Shown here in pieces: positions 37,349-63,827 of a stretch of DNA of 64,000 bases. The notes under the pieces are model-generated. The model was not told the origin of the DNA, did not search any database, and worked only from the letters and a program-made list of their open reading frames with translations. Position 1 is the first letter of the stretch. Every line of letters begins with the position of its first letter. The translations under genes and the position numbers were made by a program. Source of the DNA: Halichondria panicea (lineage: Eukaryota; Porifera; Demospongiae; Suberitida; Halichondriidae); the NCBI RefSeq assembly GCF_963675165.1, contig NC_087390.1, positions 4,783,301 through 4,847,300 of the forward strand. The letters run 5' to 3'.

Positions 37349-37474
37349 GGGTAACTTTCTACTTAACACCACATCCTGCCCTAGGGCATACCCAGATTGA
37401 AGTTTGTTGCATGCATGTCAGTGCTAGCTACTGCGTTGAATATCTAAACGAATAAAAACATTTGATTCAAAAAA

Positions 37475-39550
37475 ATGAAGATAGATACCGTGCTATTTTG
37501 CATTTCATTAGCACTACTAACTACTAATGTACAGACAGCAGTCTCTGGTGAATACAATCTAGTTGTAGCTTCTAGCAATTCTTCTACACAGTGTCAACAA
37601 TTGTGCTTTTGTCAAAATGATGTCTTTGATTGCAACTCCACTCACCCTACTGTGCTAACAAAGAAAGGAGAGAAGTTCGCACTAAGTGTTGCAGTTGTGG
37701 ACCAAGTGGGCAAACCAGTCAATGCCACTATAATCACTTCACTCAAACTAGACCCTGGTGAGATTGGATCGCTTAAAGGAGGCCAGCAAAAGCGACAAGT
37801 AGACGACAGATGCACGGAGTTGGAGTACACAATTTACTCTAGTAATGACTATCGCGCTGTGATGGAGATTAATGCTGATAAGAGCACTTTCATGAAAGAA
37901 GTGAATGTTACGTTTCTTCCGTTTACGTGTCCAATCGGACTTGAACCACACTCCAGGGTTATTGATTACACATGTGTCTGTGATAAACAAATAAAACAAT
38001 ATGTCAGCAAATGCTCATTAGAAAACGGCACCTGGTCGATTGAAATGAACTCAGAGCTATTTTATAAGTGGATCAAGTACTCATATGCCAATATTACCAA
38101 ATCATGGTTTCTCATAGCTGCATCATGTCCTTATGAATATTGTCAGAAACGTCCACTCAACATCAGTCTTGTTGGTTTAATTGAAACAGACGAGCAGTGT
38201 GCCTACAATAGGTCTGGAGTATTGTGTGGTGGGTGTCCTCAAGGACTTAGTCTTGTGTTTGGCAGCTCAAAATGTGTGCAATGCTCGAACTACTACCTTC
38301 TCTTGATTGTACCGTTTGCTCTGGCTGGTATTGTACTCGTGGCATTCATTCTTTTGACTAATATGACTGTTGCAACAGGGACTATCCATGGGCTCATCTT
38401 TTATGCGAACATTGTTGCAGTAAATCACACCTTTTTCTTTCCATTTAAAAATCCGAATTTTCTTACTGTGTTCATATCGTGGTTAAATCTTGACTTGGGA
38501 ATTGAAACCTGTTTCTACGATGGAATGGACTCGTATGGAAAACTGATGCTCCAACTTGTGTTTCCAGTCTATATTTTTCTACTGATCCTTGCGTTTATGG
38601 TTTTGCATGATCGTTCCCAAAAAGTTGCTCGGATAATTGGTAAAATGAACCCTGAGGCAACACTTTACACGCACATACTTCTCTCCTATTCCAAATTAAT
38701 TCGAATTATCATTGCAGCTTTACAGAATGCGAACTTTGCATATCCTGATGGTAGCCATAAGTTTGTCTGGTTTTACGATGGCAATGTGTCGTACTTTGCG
38801 TTTAGCCACATTCCACGATTCCTTGCAGCCTTTATCATCACTCTCTTTGCTGCTGTGTACATTGTAATGCTTTCTTGTGGGCAGGTATTTAGCCGTTACT
38901 CCAAATATAAGCTCTTCAAATGGACCACACACAAGTACTGTATTCACTTTATGAATGCACATCATGCTCCCCTCAATAATGACCATCGCTACTGGGTGGG
39001 ACTGCTCCTGCTAGTAAAACTTGTTTATTTCCTACTCTCAACATTGTTCTATGCTAATATTGAGACTGTGGGAATATTTTCTGCTTGTTTGGCATTTATC
39101 ATGCTACTTTTCAAGCTTTTGAACAGAGCATACATAAAAAGTTTTACTAACTACCTTGAGGCATTGTTTTTCATCAATTTATTAGTGATTTCCATTATAG
39201 TTGCAAATTCAAGGACTTTAATAAGCAAAGATAATCATTTCATTTTGGCTTATCTATCAATGTCTATCGTCTTTGTTTCGTTTATCGTTATGACGGTATT
39301 GCACACTTGTGGGAAGAGTTTGAGCAAAACCTATGCAACGATTCGAATGCAATTTGCTAATAGAATTTCGCAGCAAGAGGAAAGGGAACATCTTGTTGAA
39401 GACGTCAACAATGATACACCTGATGATCAGCTGAGAGAGCCGGCACTGGACATTCTGATTCCAGTACAGCCGGAAGACTACAACACACCTTCTCTACCGT
39501 CCCCTACGATACAAACCAGACAGATGACTACATTTGTCGATATTAGGTAG
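37475..39550 (+). CDS. Cys-rich multi-pass membrane protein, gene 1 (691 aa)
   Basis: Intronless. A signal peptide (1-24) precedes a Cys-rich ectodomain with N-glycosylation sites (CQQLCFCQNDVFDC at 40-53; CGGCPQGLSL and CVQCSNYYL near 251-275). Hydrophobic segments follow near 272-298, 357-378, 398-417, 440-470, 506-526, 530-550, 560-578 and 590-612: about seven or eight passes. The cytoplasmic tail is acidic (DQLREPALDILIPVQPEDYN) and ends FVDIR. I recognise it as a family common in sponges and cnidarians but know no function; a receptor or channel is possible. First of four tandem copies, and the copy attached to intact HSPA12-like and MIEAP-like neighbours. Confidence 0.75.
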   Translation: MKIDTVLFCISLALLTTNVQTAVSGEYNLVVASSNSSTQCQQLCFCQNDVFDCNSTHPTVLTKKGEKFALSVAVVDQVGKPVNATIITSLKLDPGEIGSLKGGQQKRQVDDRCTELEYTIYSSNDYRAVMEINADKSTFMKEVNVTFLPFTCPIGLEPHSRVIDYTCVCDKQIKQYVSKCSLENGTWSIEMNSELFYKWIKYSYANITKSWFLIAASCPYEYCQKRPLNISLVGLIETDEQCAYNRSGVLCGGCPQGLSLVFGSSKCVQCSNYYLLLIVPFALAGIVLVAFILLTNMTVATGTIHGLIFYANIVAVNHTFFFPFKNPNFLTVFISWLNLDLGIETCFYDGMDSYGKLMLQLVFPVYIFLLILAFMVLHDRSQKVARIIGKMNPEATLYTHILLSYSKLIRIIIAALQNANFAYPDGSHKFVWFYDGNVSYFAFSHIPRFLAAFIITLFAAVYIVMLSCGQVFSRYSKYKLFKWTTHKYCIHFMNAHHAPLNNDHRYWVGLLLLVKLVYFLLSTLFYANIETVGIFSACLAFIMLLFKLLNRAYIKSFTNYLEALFFINLLVISIIVANSRTLISKDNHFILAYLSMSIVFVSFIVMTVLHTCGKSLSKTYATIRMQFANRISQQEEREHLVEDVNNDTPDDQLREPALDILIPVQPEDYNTPSLPSPTIQTRQMTTFVDIR

Positions 39551-39784: not shown

Positions 39785-39880
39785 ATCATACGTTTGTACT
39801 ATAGATCTGTTCTCTTTACGAGTTGTGGGGAAGGTGGCAAGGAAAGGATGGATTGGAAATACTTACTGCTAACAGGTTAT
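39785..39880 (+). pseudogene. MIEAP-like last-exon fragment
   Basis: GTACTATAGATCTGTTCTCTT and GGAAAGGATGGATTGGAAA match the YYRPVLFMS/ARKGWVGN part of the intact gene near 36148-36205, with indels. The following homologous half is missing here but present at 48795-48850, after the ParB/DUF7869 block. Confidence 0.65.
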
Positions 39881-40126
39881 GACCTACAGGTTCCCTTTAT
39901 GAAATAGGTTCTAAGATGCATTTTAGGACAGCGGAATAATAATAGTTTTACAGATGTTAAATATCGTTCTTTTTTAACTGCTGTAGTTAGTCAGAGTCAA
40001 CTTTTTCCAGGAAATCTTGTTTTGAAGCACCTTCTTCAAAGACTGCAACTAAATTGCGCCCTGATTTCACAGCAGCCATTGATCCTGGAAATTGTTGGAA
40101 CGTATTTAAACATTGTACAAATTTGC

Positions 40127-40335
40127 ATATTTGCAAATTGTACAAATTTGTACAAAATTTGTTCAGTACATTTTATGTACAAATTTGCATAACCTTAAAA
40201 TTTGCAAATTGTACAAATTTGTACAAAATTTGTTCAGTACATTTTATGTACAAATTTGCATAACCTTAAAATTTGCAAATTGTACAAATTTGTACAAAAT
40301 TTGTTCAGTACATTTTATGTACAAATTTGTACACT
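40127..40335 (+). repeat. 71-bp tandem repeat (3 units) built on GTACAAATTTGTAC
   Basis: Three units containing TTGTACAAATTTGTACAAAA, TTTGTTCAGTACATTTTATG and ATAACCTTAAAATTTGC. The palindrome GTACAAATTTGTAC recurs in the satellite at 48435-48690, on the other side of the ParB-like/DUF7869 genes. Confidence 0.9.
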
Positions 40336-40709
40336 TCATGATAATTATGCATGGCTGTCTAATGATAAGTTATAATACTTATCGTTATAGTTATACATCA
40401 GCTTACCTAACCTTGATACAACTAGCTAACAGTCTCAAAAACTATTGTAAACGAATGAAATGATTGTGCATATAGCTTGTATATAGCCAGTGCTAAGCTT
40501 CTACCTCTATGCAACAACTTGTCCAAGCTGAGAGCCCCACCCTTTTTCCAGTCCTGTGTTTAAGCAAGTTTTAGCGAGCCCATGCATGCACCTATCATGC
40601 ATGCCCTTGCCAACAAGTGCATGTCTATAATTATATAGACTGGTTATACCTTCTATTTGGCTATGTATAGATCTAGTATAAAATCAGTGTGCCCTCAAGG
40701 CAAGAGAGT
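40336..40709. other. 3' flank of the ParB-like gene
   Basis: AT-rich sequence with no open frame of interest; nothing specific seen. Confidence 0.4.
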
Positions 40710-43700
40710 TTAGGAATGCAGAGTCGCTATGATACAGAGGAAGTGCGGCCTAGTTGGAATCAAAGCTAATGAATACACTCCTGCATGTGAACTGCTTGTA
40801 ATTGCCATGTAATAATCCTTATGATAATTATATAATTATATAGCTGTACACATTATACAGCTGTACACACTTACCACTTTCAGTAGCATCAAGGACTGTT
40901 TGTCCACTGTATGTGAACGTCTCCACGATACTTTCTGTCAATGTTTCGTCGTCTAAGCCATTGTGGCAAAACACGTTGTGGCGACATTTCTGGTGATCAC
41001 GCAAGAGTTTGCCACTCTGTGACCAATGGCCGATGACGATTGCTTCTAAACAAGGAGTTAATCCTACTTTCCCATCACGGACACTCGGTGATTCTGAACA
41101 TTTATAACACTGATTATTATCTTGTATATATAATTATACAAGTCCTTACCTGGTTTCGACTTGTCATAATGATAAGCAATTTCAGCTGAGTCAAAACATT
41201 TCATTAGACCAGTCTTGACCATCTCTGCCTGTTCAAGCTTGCAGAGTACAGCCACATGAAAGTATGACAATGCTGTATTTGTTGAGTTGAGTTGACGGCA
41301 AGTGTAAGCCATCTTTGACATGGCGTCTGGTGTTATATCCTGTTAATAGATAAATACTCTGTGATAATGATTATACATGTACAATTAAACACACCTTAGA
41401 GCAAACAGCAATGGTCAGACTAGCACCCGAGAACGCTGGGATCTGTGAATCCATCACACTTTGGCAGTAGGTTTTAAATGCATCTGGGGCTGAATGTCGA
41501 AAGTCGAGATGTGCAAACTTCTGTAATTTTGCCATTGTTGTACTCGTTGGGTACTTTTGCTGAGCCTCTCTCCAAGAACCAGTGTTGGTTAAACGAACAA
41601 ATGATGCTTTGACAGCTTCGGAGCTTCGAAATGCTGTACACGAAGTCTTCAACTCCTTTAGGGAAACTTCTAGACATGTTATATCTTCGTCAAAATGTTG
41701 ACCTGGAAGTCAGGCTTAAGATGGTGCAGCGGCTGAAGGAGGTGTTGTTTGAATTCTGGAGCGGCTGTTATTTGTTGTTTTTTAAGCTTCTGCTCTTTCA
41801 ATGCTCCTTGTTCAAACATGTCCATTGTTGTTTGGACCAACTCCCACACCTTTTTGTCAAAGGTAGATTGTGCAAAAATGTTTTCCCTTTGAGTTCTAGA
41901 AAAACTCTGTAGGATAGATTTAGAAAACTGCATGTGTGACCTGCCACCCATAATTATTTTGTATATACCTCTGGAAGAATACACCTAGCACAGGTCCTCT
42001 TCCAATCAGCAGTTGGAAGAGGTGTCTCATCAACTGTTGAATCTTGTCCATTCACTCACAAACAGACGCTCACGGCATGCTTCTACCTGTATAACAAGTT
42101 CACTCCTCTTAATACATACATAGCTATATACACTGTTTCAGAGGTGTCTATATAATAGTTAGACACTGTTTAGGAAGTTTCTACATGATTTAGAAGCCCA
42201 AAGGGCTGGTTGTAGTATCCCGAACGCAGTGAGGGTTCTATACTAGCCCTGAGGACTTCTAAATCATGTGGAAAGTTCCTAAACAGTGTCTAAGCATTTT
42301 AGATCATAGCAACCATGAAGTATTTAGCCAATCAGATTTGAATGTTCTTATCTAATCTTTGCTACATGATTTTCTAAGTGAAGTACATGATTTTCTAAGT
42401 AAGTGCATGATTTTCTAAATAAGTACATGTACATGATTTTCTAAGTTGGATAGAACACTTCATTTAGCCAATCAAATTGCAGTATTTATGGCAAACATGA
42501 TCTAAGATTATTTAGATCATGTTTGTCATAAATACTGCAATCTGATTGGTTAGAGGAAATGTTCTATCCAATTTAGAAAATCATGTACTTCTACTTCAAT
42601 AGAAAATCATGTACTTTACTTAGAAAATCATGTAGCAAAGATTAGATAAGAACATTCAAATCTGATTGGCTAAATAATCATGGTTGCTATGATCTAAAAT
42701 GCTTAGACACTGTTTAGGAAGTTTCCACATGATTTAGAAGTCCTCAGGGCTAGTAGAACCCTCACTGCGTTCGGGATACTACAACCAGCCCTTTGGGCTT
42801 CTAAATCATGTAGAAACTTCCTAATCAGTGTCTAACTATTATATATATGGGATTTAGAAGCCCAAAAGCACTGATTTAGTATCCCACAATATTAACCAAC
42901 AAAACAGTGTCTAGATACTATAGTGTGCAAACCTTGCCCTCGAGGTTTGACTATATTACTAAATAAGTTGCATGCATAGGCCCATAGTAGCTATAGAGGC
43001 ACTTTTCCTACGTATATCTTATCAACTAGTGTCTATAAAGCTTGTGAGTCAACTCCTAATAATATGCACGGTGACTTAGAAGCTCAAAAATTATTACTAG
43101 TATAAAGTATACGTATACTATAATTATAATAGCTGTAAGCCTGCATGTAACTTACATAGTGACGGTGGGTCATAGTGTGGTGAAAGTGTCCATTGGCATT
43201 ATGACGGGATGCCAGCCATAAGGCTTCTTCATTGGTAAGACCAGCATATACATGGCATTGTACATATTCGTAGTTGTGCCCCTCCTCATTAAGCTCCTGT
43301 CTTGCTCGTACCCCATGAAGCCCACCGTGAACTTCATAGCGGTAGACATCCTTAAGCCTCTCCTCATACACAGCAACTGACCCAATGCCTTTGCATACGA
43401 CAGCAAGAGGTGGAATGCCAATACCACTGCTGTCTTCAATGAGCCTCTCCTTCAGGGATGTGACAAATTGCTTGTCCACCTTCCTCAGCAAACGATCTTT
43501 CGGTGGCTCGTCACAGTTTCTAATAAGAATGTGCTTTAAACCTGCAATGAATTTAATTTAACAGGACAGTTCTCCATAGTAATACATCATGTTATCTGTC
43601 ATTGTAGTCAAACATACCAATTTTCTTCACATCGATTAGTGCTCCCATTTCTTCATCTTCCCTTTTCTTCCTCTGTGCACCATCGTTTCTTTTTGTCCTT

Positions 43701-44310
43701 TTAGGACTTGGTGCTTGAATGTCTCGGTGTTCTTCTTCTAAGGTGGTGGCCTTTTTCAGTGATATTACCTCACTCAACTTAATTGTTATCCTCAGCTGGG
43801 TCACGATCTTCTTCATCAGTCACGGTGACCATCACTGCTTCCTCAATCGTATTGTAAGTAGTGAGCTCTTGGAATTTGTTAACAAACTCAGAGGCACTGT
43901 TAAGACTGAACTGGAAGTTCTGTGAGAATGCTGTCTTGCTGGATTCAAAGGAAGCACAATTGACAATTCCTTTCCCACGGTTTTTGAACAACACCTGCAT
44001 AATTTATACATGATTCTATATAATTTCATGTAGCAATACAGCGTAAAAGTACTCGTCAAGTGTTATAATTATGGGAATGCATTTAATTTACCAGTAGCGC
44101 TTTTTCGGATCCTTTGGCATGCTCTTTCTCTGTCGTGATATCTCTCACAGGTCCCAATTTTATGCCAGCAAATGAGGATAACTCTTCTCCATCTCGAAGT
44201 AGTTTACCCCTAGTTTCGAGAAACCATGGTCGCACTTGTTGGAGATTTGAGTGGGGCCGCGGTGCCGCCTTCAGTTTAGATGAAGCTGATCCTGACTTTG
44301 GCCGACTCAT
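40710..44310 (-). pseudogene. ParB-like / methyltransferase-like transposon gene, several frameshifts
   Basis: Read from 44310 down: exons 44092-44310, 43618-43994, 43156-43541, 41395-42086, 41150-41339, 40875-41093 and 40710-40780, all with GT-AG sites. Exon 3 has a ParB/sulfiredoxin-type fold signature: LLRKVDKQFVTSLKERLIED, IPPLAVVC, YRYEVHGGLHGVRARQEL and AGLTNEEALWLASRHN. The last exons read DETLTESIVETFTYSGQTVL then DATESG/VYSLALIPTRPHFLCI, resembling the end of an N-4/N-6 DNA methylase (motif I D-x-x-x-G-x-G degenerate). Exon 4 has three or more frame changes (near 42050, 41960 and 41685), and one more, or a 51-nt intron, lies near 43790. ParB-like domains bind or cut nucleotides/DNA. 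The pairing with a DUF7869 gene suggests a mobile element. Confidence 0.55.
42149..42843. mobile_element. Near-perfect 695-bp palindrome (foldback) in an intron
   Basis: TATATAATAGTTAGACACTG at the left faces CAGTGTCTAACTATTATATA at the right, and the arms stay complementary almost to the centre near 42505-42515. A related shorter pair lies at 42849-42920 and 52175-52285. No open frame. It sits between exons 3 and 4 of the ParB-like gene. Confidence 0.85.
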
Positions 44311-44768
44311 TTTCCACTTGCAGGAAGAGTATCTAGTTGCAACCGGGTACCAAAATTGCACTGTACGTTCTCAGCTAGTTTGCTTGAGCTATATCTAGGG
44401 ACTTCTGCCAGCTGCATTCATGGTACATGGTGTTGCTAGCTTTATTATGTTCCAAGCTTGTTCTCTACATCATGTAGCTAGGAACATGCAGCTGCTGCTT
44501 GTATAGCTAGCTAGACTTTTAAATAACCAAAAGTTTCTTTTCTACTTGCTGTCAGCACTGACCATTCAGAGAAGGTATGTTAAAATGTAACTCTAGCTTT
44601 TTACTTTATCTTATGCTGCGTGGGTGGCTCATAATCGGTCATAGCTAGCTAGCTAGCTATAGTGAGGGGGTAGATGATAATGATGATAATTATAATACTG
44701 ACTCACTAGCACTGCAGACTGCAATTTCTAATTTTCTCCTCTGTTTGCAGTGTCCCAAGCTAACTACA
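44311..44768. promoter_or_regulatory. Divergent promoter region of the ParB-like and DUF7869 genes
   Basis: 458 bp between opposed start codons (44310 minus, 44769 plus). A TTTGCAG acceptor at 44743-44749 before the plus-strand ATG suggests a 5' non-coding exon. CTAGCTAG repeats occur near 44505 and 44645. Shared control is inferred from geometry. Confidence 0.4.
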
Positions 44769-47369
44769 ATGGCTAACAAGTCAATTGTTTGGAATGACTT
44801 TAATTCTTCCATAGCTACCTCTGCACAAGAATCACCATGCAGCAGCTGCCAGCAGTCGTTCTTTGTTGAAGATTCTCCCTTGTCAACCTTTGTCCCAAAT
44901 TCTCCCATCCATCAATCAACCCCTATTGGTAGTCATCTTGGCAAAAGATCTGAAATTTCCGATAGTAGTCTCCTCTTTAATGATGTAGAGCTGGACGCAT
45001 CTTACACTCCAACGTCGCCAGGCAATTTTATTCAGACGTCGAGTACAAGTCAGCTCAGTAGTGTACTCAGTGTCACTTGTTGTGAGAATAGATGCCTTGC
45101 GAGCTTTAGTCTGCTCGAACTGGAATCATCCCAAAAATCATTTCTGAGCTGAAAGAAGGTAGACCAACAGCAGTTTTTACTCGATGCAGTCATAGCCACC
45201 TTTCATTGACAGACACAGCATTTTGCATGCTATCAATTGCTGGGAAGAAGGTTTGCAAAGTGGCATTTGGCAACATATTTGGCTTGTCAGCAAAACGAAT
45301 GAGAAGGGTAACCAGTCTCCTTGTTGAAGGTAAAATGATTATAATTGGCACACAAAAACATGCATGCGTAAATACATATAATGTACCCTCTTATTACATG
45401 TATAAATCAAATTCATTTGTACCGCTCAACAGGTGGCACAATATCACTATCTCCTCTGAAACGCATTAAAGCCAGATCAACCAAGTACATGACTGCATAT
45501 GCTTGGATGGATCGGTTCTTCAACCGTATTGGAGACAAAATGCCACACCAACAAAAAATCCATCTACCTCATTTTATGTCTCGAAAGATGGTCTATGACT
45601 TGTTGGTTCAGGATATTATGGGACAAGGATTTAGCAGGCAAGACATCATATCCGGATCACATTTCTATGCTTTGTGGAGAGATAAATTTCAATTCTGTAC
45701 TATTCCAAAGGTACGTCTGTTTTTATTAAAAACTGTATGACCATGCATGCACAGACTATATATTAATTTTGCATATTTATCAAATTACAGCACAGTTTGT
45801 TCAGCAAATGTGATACTTGTGTGAAATTTGCAAATGAAAGGCTTAAAGTTGCTGGAGATAAAGCGGCTAAAGAGAAGCTGAGTCAAGAGTACAAGCAACA
45901 CCTGGAATTGGTTACGTAAGTCTCCTTTTCTCTCAGTTATCAATGATATAAATGTATATAGGCCTCATGATAGTGTTCTGTATATAATTATGTGAATTAA
46001 TAAAAGATTTATGACTCTGTGATTTCAAATCAGAAGAAGCATATAATTATTGCAATTAATTGTTTACTCTCAGATCTGAACCATCGTGAAAAGGCAAGGA
46101 GCAAGCCATCCAAATATCTCAGTGTCATTATTGATGGCATGGACCAGAACAAGACAAATGTGCCACATGTTACCCAGGAAACAAAGTCCACTCAAAATCT
46201 TTGGCGTCTACGTAGCCATCTAACAGGAGCCCTGGTTCATACCAAATCTGTTAACGGGAAAGTGGTGTTTGCTTTCTTTGATCTCATGCAGTGGCCCCAT
46301 GATTCCAATCTTACGATAGCAGTTCTAAATTTGGTACTTGTCACACTCCAGCAAGCTATTTTTGATCACCCACTACCACCTGTGTTGTACGTCCAACTGG
46401 ATAATACTGCTCGCGAAAACAAAAACAAGTATGTCTTCTCTTATCTTGCCTTGCTTGTTCAGTTGAAGATATTCAAGAAGGTATGTTGAGCAATAATACC
46501 AGGCACTACTTTAATTTCATTTCCATTGTTACTCCAGATCCGAGTGAACTTTTTACCGGTGGGTAACACCCATGAAGACGTTGATCAGTTCTTCAGCAAA
46601 GTGTCCACCCAGCTCAAACGCTTGGGAACAGAGACTATCAGCGGTAAGTAAAAGAGATCATGCATGCATGCATTATTACAATAACAATGCTCAACTCTAG
46701 ATTCTGTAAGAACATTATCATAATTATTCACATACTTTGCACATACATGACCTTATGCTGTATCTTAATATTCACCCTATATATAGACCTGCACAGTGTA
46801 ACAGAACAGAGCTTCACACCTGAGCCAATAACAGCCCAAATTCAGGCAATACATGATGTTCGATCCTGGCTCATCCCTCATATTGAAGATCTTCATGGTC
46901 ATAGCCAGCCTCATGCTTTCGGTTCACCTTAAACAAAGAGGGTATTGCCGAAATGCACTTCAAGACCTGGAGTACGGACAAGGCTTGGTCTAAGGAAGGT
47001 CTTCTGTTGTTAAAAGTAATGATAATTATACCAACATAATAATATTATATCGTGTGAAATTTAAAATATTCACCCCAGGGAGTGCCTCAAGGATCTCCTT
47101 CCCTGTGTATCCCTTCTTCTGAGAAACAGGATTTGAATCTCTTGCGAGCTGACATACGCAAGTGGCGTCAGTGGTTGTCAGATGACTCTTATTTTGAATG
47201 GGAACAGTTTTTAGACACAGGAATCGAAGAATTGGATACAGTACCAACCTCCCCTCCTCAATTTGCTCTGACAACGCTTCAGCAGGCACATGCAGATACT
47301 ACTTGCGAAAATGATGACAGCTATGAATCACCCACACTGCTAGTGAAAAGGGACATTCAGGTATTTTAA
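44769..47369 (+). pseudogene. DUF7869-type transposase-like gene with frameshifts
   Basis: Exons 44769-45329, 45433-45710, 45791-45915, 46074-46480, 46538-46643, 46787-47015 and 47079-47369. Family landmarks, from memory of DUF7869 proteins: CDTCVKF, YLSVIIDGMDQNKT, LYVQLDNTARENKNKY and VNFLPVGNTHEDVDQFFSKV. The D...D...E/H pattern fits an RNase H-like transposase fold, but this is inferred. Indels near 45124 and 46915 shift the frame, and the exon 3-4 junction is out of phase, so it is not functional as read. The N-terminal exon is Ser/Thr-rich with CSSC and CCENRC. The last exon ends in a Glu/Ser-rich tail. Confidence 0.65.
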
Positions 47370-47414
47370 ACACCTATATAATTATATTATGTTATGGAAC
47401 AGCTTTGAGGGTAA

Positions 47415-47612
47415 TACCGTATAGCGAGTAATTTTCGTCGGGTAAAAATTCGTTCAACTCGAAAAACAGTGGTATTCGTGAGTAAAAATTTTGTTTATTC
47501 TCGTTGCTTGCACTGGTAAGCCATGCCTACGGTAAAATTTCGTGGAGGTCAGCTTGCCCACGAAAATAACGAATATTTTACCCCAAGAAAATTACCCGCT
47601 ATATATACGGTA
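47415..47612. mobile_element. MITE, TACCGTATAGCGGG family (198 bp)
   Basis: TACCGTATAGCGAGTAATTT at the left faces AAATTACCCGCTATATATAC plus GGTA at the right. Same family as 29756-29942. Confidence 0.75.
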
Positions 47613-48434
47613 CTCTGCATGCATGGCTATTTTTATATTATATAGATTTGTTTATATTAAACCCCACTACTCGAGGCCGTAGCAAGCAGTCAGGTTTTGG
47701 CCTGACCACTTTTTTGAGCTAAGTAGGTAAATATTGTCATTATTGAAAATTACATAATGGTGTCCTGTTAATGGTCAGCAATAATAATTGTAATATCAGG
47801 GTATTAAATGAACCCCACCAGGAATGCTCATTTAAAGGTGTTACATGCAGCATGTTGTCAATAATAATTATATGGGAGAATTGTTAATGAGAGCATTAAT
47901 TGTACAAACAACATACGAATTGTATAATAAATTGTACAAACATCCATAATTATAAATAATTATTGTTCAGTTACTCAGAAATAGGTAAAAAAATAATTGA
48001 AAGTATCAACTGATCATGAAGAGCTCCTTTTAGATCCATTAATGACTATAATTATACAGATGATGAAACAGTCGTAAGTGCATCTGCAATAAGAAGTTAT
48101 TACATACATAAATTAATAATAAAAGTATAAAGACGAGTCATAGTATTGGTAGAAATTATTTTACCGCAATAGATTTAACGCCAATATCCCGAGCTGAAAA
48201 TTTGCACCAACGACGTTGTTATGGTAAACAAGGGTGTAATACCGTATAGCACGAAATTATCGAGGGGCTTAATTTTCACTGTTTTCATGGGTTAGCAATC
48301 CTATACACGAAATTCCACAAAAGTTGTTCTAGTTATCTGCTAACGTGCAAAGATTATAAAGGCGTGGCTTCCGGCACATATGCAGTCAACCATGCAACGT
48401 ATAGAGTATATATTTATTGTGCAAATTAATCAAT
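47613..48434. other. AT-rich stretch with no gene
   Basis: Contains TTGTACAAAC motifs near 47898 and 47932 and a partial TACCGTATAGC MITE end near 48239. No open frame with coding character. Confidence 0.5.
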
Positions 48435-48690
48435 TTGTGGAAATATACAAATTTGTACACTCAAGATGATGCTTTATAATATCATACAAATTTGTACTCT
48501 TAAATAAATGTACAAATTTGTACAAATCTAGAGTGTACAAATTTGTACAAATTTGTACACTTCATATAAGTGTACAAATTTGTACACTTCATATTGTGTA
48601 CAAATTTGTACACTTCATATGTACAAATTTGTACACTTTATGTAAGTGTACAAATTTGTACAAATTTGTACACTTATAATAATTTGTACA
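48435..48690 (+). repeat. Satellite of GTACAAATTTGTAC palindromes
   Basis: About ten copies of GTACAAATTTGTACA spaced by TTCATAT-, TTAAATAA- or ATAAGT-type linkers. Same core as the array at 40127-40335. Confidence 0.9.
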
Positions 48691-48794
48691 GGTTTCATGC
48701 TCCCTCCAGGTCTACACAGGGAAACGAAGAGCTGCCCAACCTGAAGCTGACCTATCTTTGGTCAAAACTAGAGATCTTGTTGCCATTCATCATA

Positions 48795-53436: not shown

Positions 53437-53535
53437 TGTTAAAGAGCAAGTTTGGCTGCATACATGCATATCAGCTATATAGTGCTAGCTAGTGTACGTG
53501 TTGAATATCTACACGCGTATATACATTGACTCGGA

Positions 53536-55617
53536 ATGAGTATAGTAGTACTATTGTGTGTTTTGTTAGTCCAACTAACTACTGGTGTACAGACCATCTC
53601 TGATCACTACACCGTAGCAACAGGTTCTAGCAATTCCTCTACACAGTGTCAACAATTGTGCTTTTGTCAAAATGATGTCTTTGATTGCAACTACACTCAC
53701 CCTACTGTGCTAACAAAGAAAGGAGAGACGTTCGCACTGAGTGTTGCAGTTGTGGACCAGGTGGGCAAGTCAGTCAATGCTATGATCATTAGTTCACTCA
53801 AACTAAACCGTGGTGAGATTGGATCGGTTAAAGGAGGCCAGCAAAGACGACAAGTGAAAGACAGATGCACAGAGTTGGAGTACACAATTTACTCTAGTAA
53901 TGACCATCGAGCTGTGATAGAGATTAATGCTGATAACAGTTTTTGCTGTGACCAAACAACTTTAATGAAAGAAGTGAATGTTACGTTTCTTCCGTTTACG
54001 TGTCCAATCGGACTTGAACCACACTCCAGGGTTATTGATTACACGTGTGTCTGTGATAAACTAATAAAACAATACGTCAGCAAATGCTCCTTACAAAACG
54101 GTACCTGGTCCATTGAAATGAACTCAGATCTATATGATCACTGGATCAAGTATGTGTATGCCAATATCACTGGATCATGGTTTCTTGTAGCTTCAGTGTG
54201 TCCTTATGAATATTGCCGGAAACATCCACTCAACATCACTCTTGTTGGTTTAATTGAAACAGACGAGCAGTGTGCCCACAATAGGTCTGGGGTATTGTGT
54301 GGTGGGTGTCCTCAAGGACTTAGTCTTGTGTTTGGCAGCTCAAACTGTGTGCAATGCTCAAACTACTACCTCCTCTTGATTGTACCGTTTGCTCTGGCTG
54401 GTATTGTACTCGTGGCATTCATTCTTTTGACTAATATGACTGTTGCAACAGGGACTATCCATGGGCTCATCTTTTATGCAAACATTGTTTCAACAAATCA
54501 GACCCTTTTCTTTCCATTTGAAAATTCGAACTTTCTTACTGTGTTCATATCGTGGTTAAACCTTGACTTGGGAATTGAAACCTGTTTTTACAATGGAATG
54601 GACTCGTATGGAAAGCTAATGCTCCAACTTGTGTTTCCAGCATACCTTTTTCTACTGATCTTTGTATTTTTGGTTTTGCATGATCGCTCACAAAAAGTTG
54701 CTCGAATAATTGGTAAAATGAATCCTGAGGCAACACTTTACACCCTCATACTTCTCTCCTATTCCAAATTAGTTCGAATTATAATTGAAGCTTTACAGAG
54801 CGCATACCTTGGATATCCCCAAAACAAGTTTGTCTGGTTTTACGATGGCAATGTGTCGTACTTTGCGTTTAGCCACATTCCACGATTCCTTGTAGCCTTT
54901 ATCATCACTCTCTTTGCTGCTGTGTACATTGTAATGCTTTCTTGTGGGCAGGTATTTAGCCGTTACTCCAAATATAAGCTCTTCAAATGGACCACACACA
55001 AGTACTGTATTCACTTTATGAATGCACATCATGCTCCCCTCAATAATGACCATCGCTACTGGGTGGGACTGCTCCTGCTAGTAAAACTTGTTTATTTCCT
55101 ACTCTCCACACTGTTCTATGCTAATGTTGATGTTGTCGGATTATTTTCTGCAAGTTTGGCATCTATCATGCTACTTCTCAAGTTGTTGAACAGAGCATAT
55201 ACAAAACGTTCTACTAACTTCCTTGAGACGTTGTTTTTCATCAATTTATTTGTGATTTCCATTGTAGTTGCAAATTCAAGGACTTCGATAAGCAAGAATA
55301 TTCATTTCATCTTGGCATATCTATCAATGTCTATCGTCTTTGTTTCGTTTATCGTTATGACAGTATTGCACACTTGTGGAAAGCGTTTGAGCAAAACCTA
55401 TGCAACAATTCGAATGCAATCTGCTATTAGAGTTTCACAGCAAGAAGAAAGGGAACATCTTGTTGAAGACATCAACAATGAGACACCTGATGATCAGTTG
55501 AGAGAGCCAGCACTGGACATTCTGATTCCAGTTCAACCAGAAGATTACAACATACCAGAACCACCGTCCCCTACAATACAAACCAGACAGATGACTACAT
55601 TTGTCGATATTAGGTAG
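53536..55617 (+). CDS. Cys-rich multi-pass membrane protein, gene 2 (693 aa)
   Basis: Intronless paralogue of gene 1 with the same signal peptide, Cys pattern, passes and tail (FVDIR end). It differs by an added CC pair in the ectodomain (SFCCDQ) and by a two-residue shorter extracellular loop (LGYPQNKFVWF, where gene 1 has AYPDGSHKFVWF). Its upstream 1.2 kb is nearly identical to that of gene 3, so genes 2 and 3 arose by a recent tandem duplication of about 3.5 kb. Frame intact. Confidence 0.78.
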   Translation: MSIVVLLCVLLVQLTTGVQTISDHYTVATGSSNSSTQCQQLCFCQNDVFDCNYTHPTVLTKKGETFALSVAVVDQVGKSVNAMIISSLKLNRGEIGSVKGGQQRRQVKDRCTELEYTIYSSNDHRAVIEINADNSFCCDQTTLMKEVNVTFLPFTCPIGLEPHSRVIDYTCVCDKLIKQYVSKCSLQNGTWSIEMNSDLYDHWIKYVYANITGSWFLVASVCPYEYCRKHPLNITLVGLIETDEQCAHNRSGVLCGGCPQGLSLVFGSSNCVQCSNYYLLLIVPFALAGIVLVAFILLTNMTVATGTIHGLIFYANIVSTNQTLFFPFENSNFLTVFISWLNLDLGIETCFYNGMDSYGKLMLQLVFPAYLFLLIFVFLVLHDRSQKVARIIGKMNPEATLYTLILLSYSKLVRIIIEALQSAYLGYPQNKFVWFYDGNVSYFAFSHIPRFLVAFIITLFAAVYIVMLSCGQVFSRYSKYKLFKWTTHKYCIHFMNAHHAPLNNDHRYWVGLLLLVKLVYFLLSTLFYANVDVVGLFSASLASIMLLLKLLNRAYTKRSTNFLETLFFINLFVISIVVANSRTSISKNIHFILAYLSMSIVFVSFIVMTVLHTCGKRLSKTYATIRMQSAIRVSQQEEREHLVEDINNETPDDQLREPALDILIPVQPEDYNIPEPPSPTIQTRQMTTFVDIR

Positions 55618-56995: not shown

Positions 56996-57086
56996 TGTTA
57001 AAGAGCAAGTTTGGCTGCATGCATGCATATCAGCTAGTGCTAGCTAGTGTGTTGAATATCTACACGAGTATATACATTGACTAGGA

Positions 57087-58985
57087 ATGAGTATAGTAGT
57101 ATTGTGTGTTTTGTTAGTCCAACTAACTATTGGTGTACAGACCATCTCTGATCTCTACACCGTAGCAACAGGTTCTAGCAATTCCTCTACACAGTGTCAA
57201 CAATTGTGCTTTTGTCAAAATGATGTCTTTGATTGCAACTCCACACACCCTACTGTGCTAACAAAGAAAGGAGAGAAGTTCGCACTATGTATTGCAGTTG
57301 TGGACCAGATGGGCAAGTCAGTCAATGCTACGATAATCAGTTCACTCAAACTAGACCCTGGTGAGATTGGATCTCTTAAAGGAGGCCAGCAAAGACGACA
57401 AGTGAAAGACAGATGCACCGAGTTGGAGTACACAATTTACTCTAGTAATGACCATCAAGCTGTGATAGAGATTAATGTTGATAAGAGTTCTTGCTGTGAG
57501 CAAAAAACATTCATGAAAGAAGTGAATGTTGCCTTTCTTCCGTTTACGTGTCCAATAGGACTTGAACCACACTCTGGGGTTATTGATTACACGTGTGTCT
57601 GTGATCAACAAATAAAACAATACGTCAGTAAATGCTCCTTACAAAACGGTACCTGGTCCATTGAAATGAAATCAGATCTATATGATCACTGGATCAAGTA
57701 TGTGTATGCCAATATCACTGGATGGTTTCTTGTAGCTTCAGTGTGTCCTTATGAATACTGTCAGAAACGTCCACTCAACATCAGTCTTGTTGGTTTAATT
57801 GAAACAGACGAGCAGTGTGCCTACAATAGGTCTGGGGTATTGTGTGGTGGGTGTCCTCAAGGACTTAGTCTTGTGTTTGGCAACTCAAAATGTGTGCAAT
57901 GCTCAAACTACTACCTCCTCTTGATTGTACCGTTTGCTCTAGCTGGTATTGTACTAGTGGCATTCATTCTTTTGACTAATATGACTGTTGCAACAGGGAC
58001 TATCCATGGGCTCATCTTTTATGCAAACATTGTTTCAGCAAATCAGACCCTTTTCTTTCCATTTGAAAATCCGAACTTTCTTACTGTGTTCATATCGTGG
58101 TTAAACCTTGACTTGGGAATTGAAACCTGTTTTTACGATGGAATGGACTCGTATGGAAAGCTAATGCTCCAACTTGTGTTTCCAGCATACCTTTTTCTAC
58201 TGATCTTTGTATTTTTGGTTTTGCATGATCGCTCACAAAAATTTGCTCGGATAATTGGTAAAATGAATCCTGAGGCAACACTTTACACGCTTATACTTAT
58301 CTCCTACTCCAAATTGATTCGAATTATAATTGCTGCTTTACATCTCGCATACCTTGCATATCCTCAGAACAAGTTTGTCTGGTTTTACGATGGCAATGTG
58401 TCGTACTTTGCGTTTAGCCACATTCCTCGATTCCTTGCAGCCTTTATTATCACTCTCTTTGCTGCTGTGTACATTGTAATGCTTTCTTGTGGGCAGGTAT
58501 TTAGCCGTTACTCCAAATATAAGCTCTTCAAATGGACCACACACAAGTACTGTATTCACTTTATGAATGCACATCATGCTCCCCTCAATAATGACCATCG
58601 CTACTGGGTGGGACTGCACCTGCTAGTAAAACTTGTTTATTTCCTACTCTCCACACTGTTCTATGCTAATATTGAAGTTGTAGGATTATTTTCTGGAAGT
58701 TTGGCATTTGTCATGTTACTTCTCAATCTGTTGAATAGAGTATACAAACAACGTTCTACTAACTTCCTTGAGGTATTGTTTTTCATCAATTTATTTGTGA
58801 TTTCGATTGTAGTAGCAAATTCAAGGAATTTGATAAGCAAGAACGTTGATTTCATCTTGGCATATCTATCAATGTCTATCGTCTTTGTTTCATTTATCGT
58901 TATGACGGTATTGCACACTTGTGGGAAGAGTTTGAGCAAAACCTATGCAACGATTCGAATGCAATTTGCTAATAGAATTTCATAG
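57087..58985 (+). CDS. Multi-pass membrane protein, gene 3, tail removed by nonsense codon (632 aa)
   Basis: Same architecture through all membrane passes, but the codon after ANRIS is TAG where the other copies have CAG (Gln), a single C-to-T change. The coding text continues past it (EEREHLVEDINNETPDDQLREPAL at 58986-59060) and then breaks down through a deletion before the normal end. The truncated product lacks the acidic cytoplasmic tail. It could still reach the membrane without tail-mediated signalling, or be an early pseudogene. Confidence 0.75.
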   Translation: MSIVVLCVLLVQLTIGVQTISDLYTVATGSSNSSTQCQQLCFCQNDVFDCNSTHPTVLTKKGEKFALCIAVVDQMGKSVNATIISSLKLDPGEIGSLKGGQQRRQVKDRCTELEYTIYSSNDHQAVIEINVDKSSCCEQKTFMKEVNVAFLPFTCPIGLEPHSGVIDYTCVCDQQIKQYVSKCSLQNGTWSIEMKSDLYDHWIKYVYANITGWFLVASVCPYEYCQKRPLNISLVGLIETDEQCAYNRSGVLCGGCPQGLSLVFGNSKCVQCSNYYLLLIVPFALAGIVLVAFILLTNMTVATGTIHGLIFYANIVSANQTLFFPFENPNFLTVFISWLNLDLGIETCFYDGMDSYGKLMLQLVFPAYLFLLIFVFLVLHDRSQKFARIIGKMNPEATLYTLILISYSKLIRIIIAALHLAYLAYPQNKFVWFYDGNVSYFAFSHIPRFLAAFIITLFAAVYIVMLSCGQVFSRYSKYKLFKWTTHKYCIHFMNAHHAPLNNDHRYWVGLHLLVKLVYFLLSTLFYANIEVVGLFSGSLAFVMLLLNLLNRVYKQRSTNFLEVLFFINLFVISIVVANSRNLISKNVDFILAYLSMSIVFVSFIVMTVLHTCGKSLSKTYATIRMQFANRIS

Positions 58986-61669: not shown

Positions 61670-61748
61670 TTTTACAAAGCTTGCATGCATATCAGTGCTA
61701 GCTATACTGAGTTGAATATCTACACAAGTAAAAGAATTGACTTAAGGA

Positions 61749-63827
61749 ATGAGTATAGTAGTACTATTGTGTGTTTTGTTAGTCCAACTAACTACTGGTG
61801 TACAGACCATCTCTGGTCACTACACTGTAGCAACAGGTTTTAGCAATTCCTCACAGTGTCAACAATTGTGCTTTTGTCAAAATGATGTCTTTGATTGCAA
61901 CTACACTCACCCTACTGTGCTAACAAAGAAAGGAGAGACGTTCGCACTGAGTGTTGCAGTTGTGGACAAGGTGGGCAAGTCAGTCAATGCTACGATCATT
62001 AGTTCACTTAAACTAAACCGTGGTGAGATTGGATCGGTTAAAGGAAGCCAGCAAAGACGACGAGTTAAAGACAGATGCACCGAGTTGGAGTACACAATTT
62101 ACTCTAGTAATGACCATCGAGCTGTGATAGAGATTAATGCTGATAAGAGTTTTTGCTGTGACCAAACAACTTTAATGAAAGAAGTGAATGTTACGTTTCT
62201 TCCGTTTACGTGTCCAATCGGACTTGAACCACACTCCAGAGTTATTGATTACACATGTATCTGTGATAAACTAATAAAACAATACGTCAGCAAATGCTCC
62301 TTACAAAACAGTACCTGGTCCATTGAAATGAACTCAGATCTATATGATCACTGGATCAAGTATGTGTATGCCAATATCACTGGATCATGGTTTCTTGTAG
62401 CTTCAGTGTGTCCTTATGAATATTGCCGGAAACATCCACTCAACATCACTCTTGCTGGTTTAATTGAAACAGATGAGCAGTGTGCCTACAATAGGTCTGG
62501 GGTATTGTGTGGTGGGTGTCCTCAAGGACTTAGTCTTGTGTTTGGCAGCGAAAAATGTGTGCAATGCTCGAACTACTACCTCCTCTTGATCGTACCGTTT
62601 GCTTTGGCTGGTATTGTACTCGTGGCATTCATTCTTTTGACTAATATGACTGTTGCAACAGGGACTATCCATGGGCTCATCTTTTATGCAAACATTGTTT
62701 CAACGAATCAGACCCTTTTTTTTCCATTTGAAAATTCGAACTTTCTTACTGTGTTCATATCGTGGTTAAACCTTGACTTGGGAATTGAAACCTGTTTTTA
62801 CGATGGAATGGACTCGTATGGAAAGCTAATGCTCCAACTTGTGTTTCCAGCATACCTTTTTCTACTGATCCTTGTATTTTTGGTTTTGCATGATCGCTCA
62901 CAAAAAGTTGCTCGGATAATTGGTAAAATGAATCCTGAGGCAACACTTTACACGCTCATACTTCTCTCCTATTCCAAATTAGTTCGAATTATAATTGAAG
63001 CTTTACAGCTCGCATACCTTGGATATCCTCAAAACAAGTTTGTCTGGTTTTACGATGGCAATGTGTCGTACTTTGCGTTTAGCCACATTCCACGATTCCT
63101 AGTAGCCTTTATCATCACTCTCTTTGCCGCTGTGTACATTGTAATGCTTTCTTGTGGGCAGGTATTTAGCCGTTACTCCAAATATAAGCTCTTCAAATGG
63201 ACCACACACAAGTACTGCATTCACTTTATGAATGCACATCATGCTCCCCTCAATAATGACCATCGCTACTGGGTGGGACTGCTCCTGCTAGTAAAACTTG
63301 TTTATTTCCTACTCTCCACACTGTTCTATGCTAATGTTGATGTTGTCGGATTATTGTCTGCAAGTTTGGCATTTATCATGCTACTTCTCAAGTTGTTGAA
63401 CAGAGCATATACAAAACGTTCTACTAACTTCCTTGAGACATTGTTTTTCATCAATTTACTTGTGATTTCCATTGTAGTAGCAAATTCAAGGACTTTGATA
63501 AGCAAGAATATTCATTTCATCTTGGCATATCTATCAATGTCTATTGTCTTTGTTTTGTTTATTGTTATGACAGTATTGCACACTTGTGGAAAGCGTTTGA
63601 GCAAAACCTATGCAACAATACGAATGCAATCTGCTATTAGAGTTTCACAGCAAGAAGAAAGGGAACATCTTGTTGAAGACATCAAAAGTGAGACAGCTGA
63701 TGATCAGCTGAGAGAGCCAGCACTAGACATTCTGATTCCAGTTCAACCAGAAGATTACAACATACCCGATCCACCGTCCCCTACGATACAAACCAGACAG
63801 ATGACTACATTTGTCGACATTAGGTAG
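61749..63827 (+). CDS. Cys-rich multi-pass membrane protein, gene 4 (692 aa)
   Basis: Intronless and intact, closest to gene 2 (shared SFCCDQTTLMKEV, AYLGYPQNKF and VDVVGL stretches). Signal peptide, Cys-rich ectodomain, CGGCPQGLSLVFGSEKC, about seven or eight passes and the FVDIR tail are all present. One ectodomain residue is lost near the start (SNSSQCQQ versus SNSSTQCQQ). Scattered differences from gene 2 are mostly in the ectodomain and loop regions, while the long stretch FSRYSKYKLFKWTTHKYC is invariant in all four genes. Confidence 0.78.
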   Translation: MSIVVLLCVLLVQLTTGVQTISGHYTVATGFSNSSQCQQLCFCQNDVFDCNYTHPTVLTKKGETFALSVAVVDKVGKSVNATIISSLKLNRGEIGSVKGSQQRRRVKDRCTELEYTIYSSNDHRAVIEINADKSFCCDQTTLMKEVNVTFLPFTCPIGLEPHSRVIDYTCICDKLIKQYVSKCSLQNSTWSIEMNSDLYDHWIKYVYANITGSWFLVASVCPYEYCRKHPLNITLAGLIETDEQCAYNRSGVLCGGCPQGLSLVFGSEKCVQCSNYYLLLIVPFALAGIVLVAFILLTNMTVATGTIHGLIFYANIVSTNQTLFFPFENSNFLTVFISWLNLDLGIETCFYDGMDSYGKLMLQLVFPAYLFLLILVFLVLHDRSQKVARIIGKMNPEATLYTLILLSYSKLVRIIIEALQLAYLGYPQNKFVWFYDGNVSYFAFSHIPRFLVAFIITLFAAVYIVMLSCGQVFSRYSKYKLFKWTTHKYCIHFMNAHHAPLNNDHRYWVGLLLLVKLVYFLLSTLFYANVDVVGLLSASLAFIMLLLKLLNRAYTKRSTNFLETLFFINLLVISIVVANSRTLISKNIHFILAYLSMSIVFVLFIVMTVLHTCGKRLSKTYATIRMQSAIRVSQQEEREHLVEDIKSETADDQLREPALDILIPVQPEDYNIPDPPSPTIQTRQMTTFVDIR

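Follow-up and report, generated by a model that had tools for sequence, protein, structure and literature searches.

In parS/ParB partition systems, the parS sites are short palindromes that are clustered beside the ParB gene. In phages and bacteria, ParB-like domains are also found fused to methylases: In ycdA of the halovirus phiH, gp207 of Gordonia phage Stormageddon and gp1 of Arthrobacter phage Shambre1, a ParB-like domain is followed by an N6/N4 methylase domain. We have analysed 64,000 nucleotides of the genome of the sponge Halichondria panicea (the window; C14:4783301-4847300 of the searched genome of 131 Mb), which contain a decayed copy of a DNA transposon with two divergent genes, one for a ParB/methylase-like protein and one for a protein with the domain DUF7869. 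The C-terminal X/I region of the ParB/methylase-like protein is like that of the phage and bacterial fusions. Unlike these, the sponge gene has 11 exons and a long extra segment between the two domains, it lacks the sequence [DNS]xP[YFW] in its methylase part, and no arginine directly follows its GG-x-H motif. Likewise, short palindromes are clustered next to the ParB-like gene as in the partition systems; in contrast to these, the arrays are located inside both ends of the element, and that the ParB-like protein binds them is something that we infer. The domain order of the window gene is also that of the ParB-methylase fusion Bce_0392 of Bacillus cereus, which is named in PMC5512222; this paper reports nicking activity for a bacterial ParB-methylase and names a conserved active-site arginine. 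Among the transposons, the Sola2 elements have AT-rich 4-bp target site duplications (TSDs) and short terminal inverted repeats (TIRs) according to PMC3627910, in which the word ParB is absent from the main text; background on TSD lengths is given in PMC10045372. In the titles and abstract openings that were searched, we found no description of an element like the one presented here.

The borders of the window copy were defined by comparison. Host sequence ends at position 39870 and picks up again near 48790, as judged from similar stretches beside tandem paralogues of a host gene, and four such stretches are free of the insertion at 39871-48790 and thus represent empty sites. A second reference is L027 on C3, a 1.4-kb internally deleted relative with 89-96% identity in the larger stretches: It starts at the same base as the window copy, has the 4-bp TSD CTAA and extends about 490 bp beyond the breakpoint of the window copy. 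Because of the comparison with the empty host stretches and with L027, we assign to the transposon copy (39871..48790) a complete left end (AACAGGTTATGACC...) and a truncated right end. By this alignment, the element has lost about 490 bp on the right, the TIR among them, through a deletion that would also have removed roughly 20 bp of the host target. The loss of the right TIR, as seen with L027, explains why no TIRs were found when they were sought in the window copy by itself. The original prediction had placed the pair at 40127-48690; the ends of this interval correspond to the inner palindrome arrays, the element runs on to 39871 and to about 48790, and the last minus-strand exon, which reaches 39987, is left outside. 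The distance of 458 bp between the divergent starts was predicted correctly: The ParB-like ATG is at 44310-44308 on the minus strand and the DUF7869 ATG at 44769 on the plus strand. The same is true for the indels and the dead state of the copy, as there are frame changes in both genes and a nested inverted-repeat insertion of 0.7 kb resembling a miniature transposon (42149..42845) lies inside the ParB/methylase-like gene; sequence related to this insertion is also present in the young-family element described below. Since both genes are broken internally and the right end is lost, the window copy is by its sequence an old, truncated and inactive member of its family.

The genome was searched with the ParB and DUF7869 exons at an E value of 0.001, and only the best candidates were scored; among these, there were 17 matches for the ParB exon and 19 for the DUF7869 exon. 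Two pairs of ParB matches each share one locus, leaving 15 ParB-exon loci (the two match lists were paired by hand). Nine of them also have a DUF7869 exon, which is divergently oriented on the other strand at a distance of 1.7 to 10.7 kb, and the head-to-head arrangement with family-shared ends is found in better-preserved pairs of the same genome. Three more DUF7869 loci (C11, C12 and C1:7050894) are members of the young family from which ParB exons have been lost. In the eight copies with both ends known, the element ends read AACA...TGTT: the start is AACA in seven (ATCA in c8b) and the end is TGTT in all. Over 33 bp, the TIRs match at 33 positions in L005 and L024, at 32 in c8a, c12 and c11, at 31 in c8b, at 23 in L027 and at 20 in L006. 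A 4-bp TSD flanks five of the eight copies, with AAGA, ATAT and CTAT in the young family and TTAA and CTAA in other families. Kolobok elements have TTAA-only target duplications, and an assignment to Kolobok is ruled out by AAGA, ATAT, CTAT and CTAA besides TTAA. The 4-bp AT-rich TSDs and short TIRs of these elements are like those described for Sola2 (PMC3627910). The TIRs, TSDs, empty sites and copies elsewhere establish, at the level of sequence, that the window element belongs to a two-gene TIR DNA transposon with several copies and families. The decay of the window copy, taken alone, might suggest that two dead genes are neighbours by chance and form no single element; the copies elsewhere refute this idea by their nine divergent pairs, defined ends, TSDs and selection on both genes, and its probability is practically negligible.

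The best-preserved sequences come from a young family of seven loci that are mostly 98-99% identical. The full element has a length of 9.8 kb and a TIR beginning with AACACATTCACTGTTAAAAGTTCC..., and its copy c8a has an open ParB/methylase-like gene of 11 exons with a product of 758 amino acids (spliced by hand at GT-AG borders, with exon models from sequence alone). Compared with c8a, this gene differs by seven synonymous and three nonsynonymous changes in c8b (P 0.0018), by eight and four in c3 (P 0.0013) and, with partial coverage, by three and one each in c1_967, c12 and c11. For the open DUF7869 segments, the synonymous/nonsynonymous counts are 7/3, 6/3, 4/1, 4/1 and 4/1; the DUF7869 segment of c3 has one premature stop. 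All these comparisons share sites of c8a, and they are hence not independent. As judged from these coding differences, both genes of the young family are under purifying selection.

The plus-strand gene (44769..48790) was correctly recognized as a DUF7869 gene: One exon matches the Pfam domain with an E value of 4.6e-33. In the window, its frame is broken and its 3' end is truncated. A DN..NKN block is invariant in all five aligned DUF7869 relatives, and further acidic residues were judged by eye. Because the gene is common to other repeated loci and because the conserved block recalls DDE/D enzymes, the DUF7869 protein is likely to be a recombinase, and the window gene encodes a probable transposase. 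Genome-wide, there are 57 DUF7869 exon matches in all, including loci without a ParB-like partner. The L025/L026-type loci share the DUF7869 domain with the window element but differ from it by long single open reading frames, by having no ParB-like neighbour and by having no repeated palindrome in 8.5 kb. The last DUF7869 exon (L005 7796-8260, and in the young element) resembles by eye a small Tudor/chromo-type barrel, with no convincing match in Pfam.

The minus-strand ParB/methylase-like gene (39987..44310) was traced by exon-by-exon tblastn matches with the 758-aa relative; it is broken by frame changes and by an internal deletion in the methylase part. An exon at 40867..41067 (minus strand) contains the methylase-like motif X/I (FTYSGQTVLDATESG), as supported by tblastn with the same relative, by the match to M.RsrI and by the alignment with phage methylases. 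The last exon (39987..40091, minus strand, 5' edge approximate, stop codon at 39989-39987) corresponds to the methylase C-terminus past motif I (GSMAAVKSGRNLVAVFEE...). An alignment of the methylase part (A2, five rows, partly joined by hand) had M.RsrI as its top match in the PDB (E 0.0032), and three of the five members matched a PHROG methyltransferase (best E 1.7e-4). In a profile-profile comparison with six phage methylases the E value was 5.6e-9 and the probability 95.9%, restricted to the X/I region; this test is not independent, because the six sequences were taken from the tblastn matches that one member gave (150 records with E values up to 10, the best being 3e-4). The Pfam family N6_N4_Mtase (PF01555) matched weakly, with E 0.011 for one fragment (one of four queries), which is below the family cut-off, and 0.032 in one of five; in NCBIfam, two of the five members matched a DNA methyltransferase (E 0.011), and an unrelated family scored slightly better in one of them (0.0083). 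Against the mixed ParB-methylase alignment A5, A2 reached an E value of 0.43, which is within the range of the controls A3-A5 (0.93), A1-A3 (0.34) and A3-A4 (0.40); A4 was used in place of A5 because most A5 rows are without a methylase. By these comparisons, motifs X and I show a good similarity to methylases.

The catalytic motif IV was sought in a strict form, [DNS]PP[YFW], and in a loose form, [DNS]xP[YFW]. Both forms are absent from the five methylase rows, from three additional fragments (L019, L021 and L023) and from the 758-aa protein; of the six phage controls, all have the loose and three the strict form. The sole loose match, DNPY, is in the ParB exon of L005 and thus outside the methylase part. 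Since L010/L023 is a mixed row and the motif IV stretch is deleted from that of the window, firm absences are limited to the young family, L005/L021, L006 and L019. At the expected place, the lineages read ADIPV, TGLPE, TSHSE and LDTPE, as located by eye and by no alignment program. These data bear on the original proposal, in which the second protein would be a working N6/N4 methylase and would mark the DNA of its own transposon for protection or for the control of transposition. The homology of motifs X/I with beta-class methylases and the purifying selection on the gene would fit such an enzyme, and methylase genes are known from transposons, i. e. from Mariner elements of large viruses (PMC3627910). 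The marking of its own DNA is nevertheless unsupported, because no methylase row has [DNS]xP[YFW] whereas all six phage controls do, and the sequences at the expected place of the motif also speak against catalysis. We therefore regard an active methylase as improbable.

The ParB/sulfiredoxin-like part is represented in the window by an exon with the GG-x-H motif (43153..43542, minus strand) that is 42% identical to the young-family exon and whose register agrees with sulfiredoxin, phrog_1033 and an actinophage ParB, all of them weak matches. Six of the seven PDB profile matches were sulfiredoxins (best E 1.3), one of five members matched phrog_1033 'ParB-like partition protein' (E 0.0063), three of five matched DUF6551 (best E 0.0039), and an actinophage ParB was matched at E 3. 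The profile-profile comparison with nine actinophage ParB proteins, some of them methylase-fused, gave an E value of 0.018 and a probability of 2.6%, to be read against the control values given above, of which A1-A3 compares the ParB part with DUF7869. With the ParB alignment as query, 21 pattern matches were obtained in viral contigs and 26 in a set of prokaryote genomes with one per species, none of which was confirmed. The single-sequence structure predictions of two window exons were too low in confidence for use (pLDDT 42.6 for the DUF7869 exon and 38.1 for the other). GG-x-H is invariant in all five ParB rows. The active-site motif of the ParB/sulfiredoxin superfamily is G-x-[H/R]-R, and an arginine immediately following GG-x-H is absent from all five rows. 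The similarity to ParB is thus weak, yet the matches fall in one register. Moreover, the order of ParB followed by methylase is that of the phage fusions phiH ycdA and Stormageddon gp207, and both assignments are therefore supported jointly. Of the originally proposed combination of a ParB domain with a methylase-like C-terminus, the methylase part is borne out by M.RsrI, PHROG and the phage alignment, and the ParB part is suggested by weak evidence; the proposed gene order of the pair is confirmed.

The window copy also has a palindrome, TGTACAAATTTGTACA, that forms two arrays. The left array (40139..40333) has four exact copies in a 71-bp tandem repeat, and the right array (48444..48672) has nine copies, eight of them exact, and precedes what is presumably the last DUF7869 exon. 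With up to one mismatch, the palindrome occurs 13 times in the window (expected 0.00), always in the two arrays. Genome-wide, exact copies were found at 33 places, 12 in the window copy and three at the L006 element, and none for the reversed control. Other families have palindromes of their own: That of the young family, ACCTAAATTTAGGT, is present at 23 places of which 17 are in its seven loci (control 1), L024 has ten copies of TTGAAATTTCAA, and in L005 the pattern used matches six copies of a near-palindrome on either side. The commonest 12-mer palindrome has 14 copies in the window element, six in the young element, four in L006 and ten in L024, numbers reached by none of 100 shuffles each; in L023, one 12-mer palindrome is found twice, above its shuffles. 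No excess over shuffles was seen in L025, in L026 or in a 30-kb window control. The left array precedes the final exon of the ParB/methylase-like gene in three elements, those of the window, the young family and L006. The arrays and the ends are probably cis-acting sites, because L027 has kept both arrays and both ends and has lost most of both genes. Further TGTACAAATTTGTACA clusters with a spacing of 25 bp are located at C6:2289861-2289976 and C11:5123548-5123638, the latter adjoining a matching right end.

Subterminal repeats of some plant transposons offer a model in which the arrays are binding sites of the DUF7869 protein, and the ParB/methylase-like protein would be employed otherwise, e. 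g. in countering host silencing. The persistence of the arrays in L027 is compatible with this model, as is L024, which has arrays and no identified DUF7869 gene; either model predicts this for an element that is mobilised in trans. On the other hand, the DUF7869-only loci L025 and L026, which represent one sequence type with unmapped ends, have no repeated 12-mer palindrome, and we consider binding by DUF7869 to be unlikely, if still a serious candidate. Palindrome binding by the ParB-like protein might seem to follow from the arrays of L024; we reject this argument, as a non-autonomous copy must keep cis sites anyway.

We regard it as fairly probable that the DUF7869 protein cuts and joins the DNA and that its partner is a catalytically degenerate DNA-binding factor of the ParB-methylase type that acts at the arrays. 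Of the two parts, the role of DUF7869 as the cutting and joining enzyme is likely, and that of the partner as an array-bound factor is less sure. The DUF7869 protein, as a DDE/D-type transposase, would cut the element ends and insert the element with a 4-bp stagger. The second protein may derive from a phage or bacterial ParB-adenine-methylase fusion that has lost the methylase catalytic motif; as an accessory factor, it would recognize the palindromes in a parS-like role and might help to bring the two element ends together. On this view, which the better-preserved copies suggest, the protein was retained for its work at the ends and not for DNA methylation. Several observations weigh against this explanation. 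No DUF7869 match lies near six of the 15 ParB-exon loci (L010, L023 and L019/L024 among them) and, conversely, L025 and L026 have DUF7869 without a ParB-like gene. DUF7869 had no relative in the search of solved structures in the PDB, and each single ParB test is weak, including the best ones with DUF6551, phrog_1033 and the profile-profile comparison. The TSD is missing in three of the eight copies (c8b, with a one-base offset, L024 and L006). The 12-mer palindrome test with 100 shuffles was negative for L005, which has an imperfect palindrome, and for L010, and it is by inference that the arrays are assigned to a particular protein. Finally, c8b and c3 have gaps inside exons, c3 is also split within exon 8 by a permutation, and a common deletion in c11 and c12 has removed ParB exons 3-5 together with half of exon 6. 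An intact ParB/methylase-like gene was accordingly seen in c8a only. Since c11 and c12 share this deletion, the ParB/methylase-like protein is dispensable in cis; the two copies are 99.93-99.98% identical and have different flanks and TSDs.

The permuted c3 copy (L013+L003+L014, C3:1889200-1907199) is a full-length unit that is circularly permuted, with the two TIRs joined with 1 bp between them. Its outer borders are within a ParB-methylase exon, and a sequence of 11-14 bp is present at both borders. The whole genome has a single occurrence of this TIR-TIR junction pattern. The re-insertion of a circle would explain this copy; a misassembly or a repair event at a tandem pair may also have produced it. 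The joined TIRs could be taken to mean that the ParB/methylase-like protein maintains or segregates an excised circular form, similar to plasmid partition. There is only one permuted copy, which repair or assembly events could also produce, and inspection of the open frames by eye revealed nothing like ParA, with no search aimed at it; we judge such a maintenance function to be highly improbable. A broader scenario, which we consider doubtful, is that a lineage of eukaryotic transposons captured a viral or bacterial ParB-methylase that then lost catalysis: The partition-like protein would clamp parS-like arrays, pair the ends and aid the survival and re-insertion of circles, with palindrome and matching protein being family-specific.

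If the explanation preferred here, i. e. a DUF7869 recombinase with an array-bound ParB-methylase-type partner, is true, a ParB-type protein, known for the segregation of bacterial DNA, works in a transposon of an intron-bearing genome together with candidate arrays of binding sites. It would moreover point to a role for DUF7869, which is still labelled as a domain of unknown function in Pfam. The young family with its one open copy of the ParB/methylase-like gene makes this idea testable.

Several additional observations concern the surroundings and the relatives of the element. L024 (715-9375; C1:15651000-15660999) has the ends AACACC...GGTGTT and inverted arms of about 1.7 kb with 100% identity, and the ParB-methylase-like gene is present. 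At L006 7963-10408 (with L031), there is a nested element with inverted repeats of its own and open frames that by eye are like an IS630/Tc1-type transposase. Six one-strand matches to the young-family end with 1-2 mismatches are found within 350 kb at C13:5635424-5982395 and are possibly short derivatives. The tandem host genes of the window are located at 37466-39550, 53530-55614, 57081-58982 and 61746-63824, with open frames of 634-695 amino acids; their DNA is 87.7-89.3% identical to the first one (37466-39550), and the stretches flanking them supplied the empty sites.

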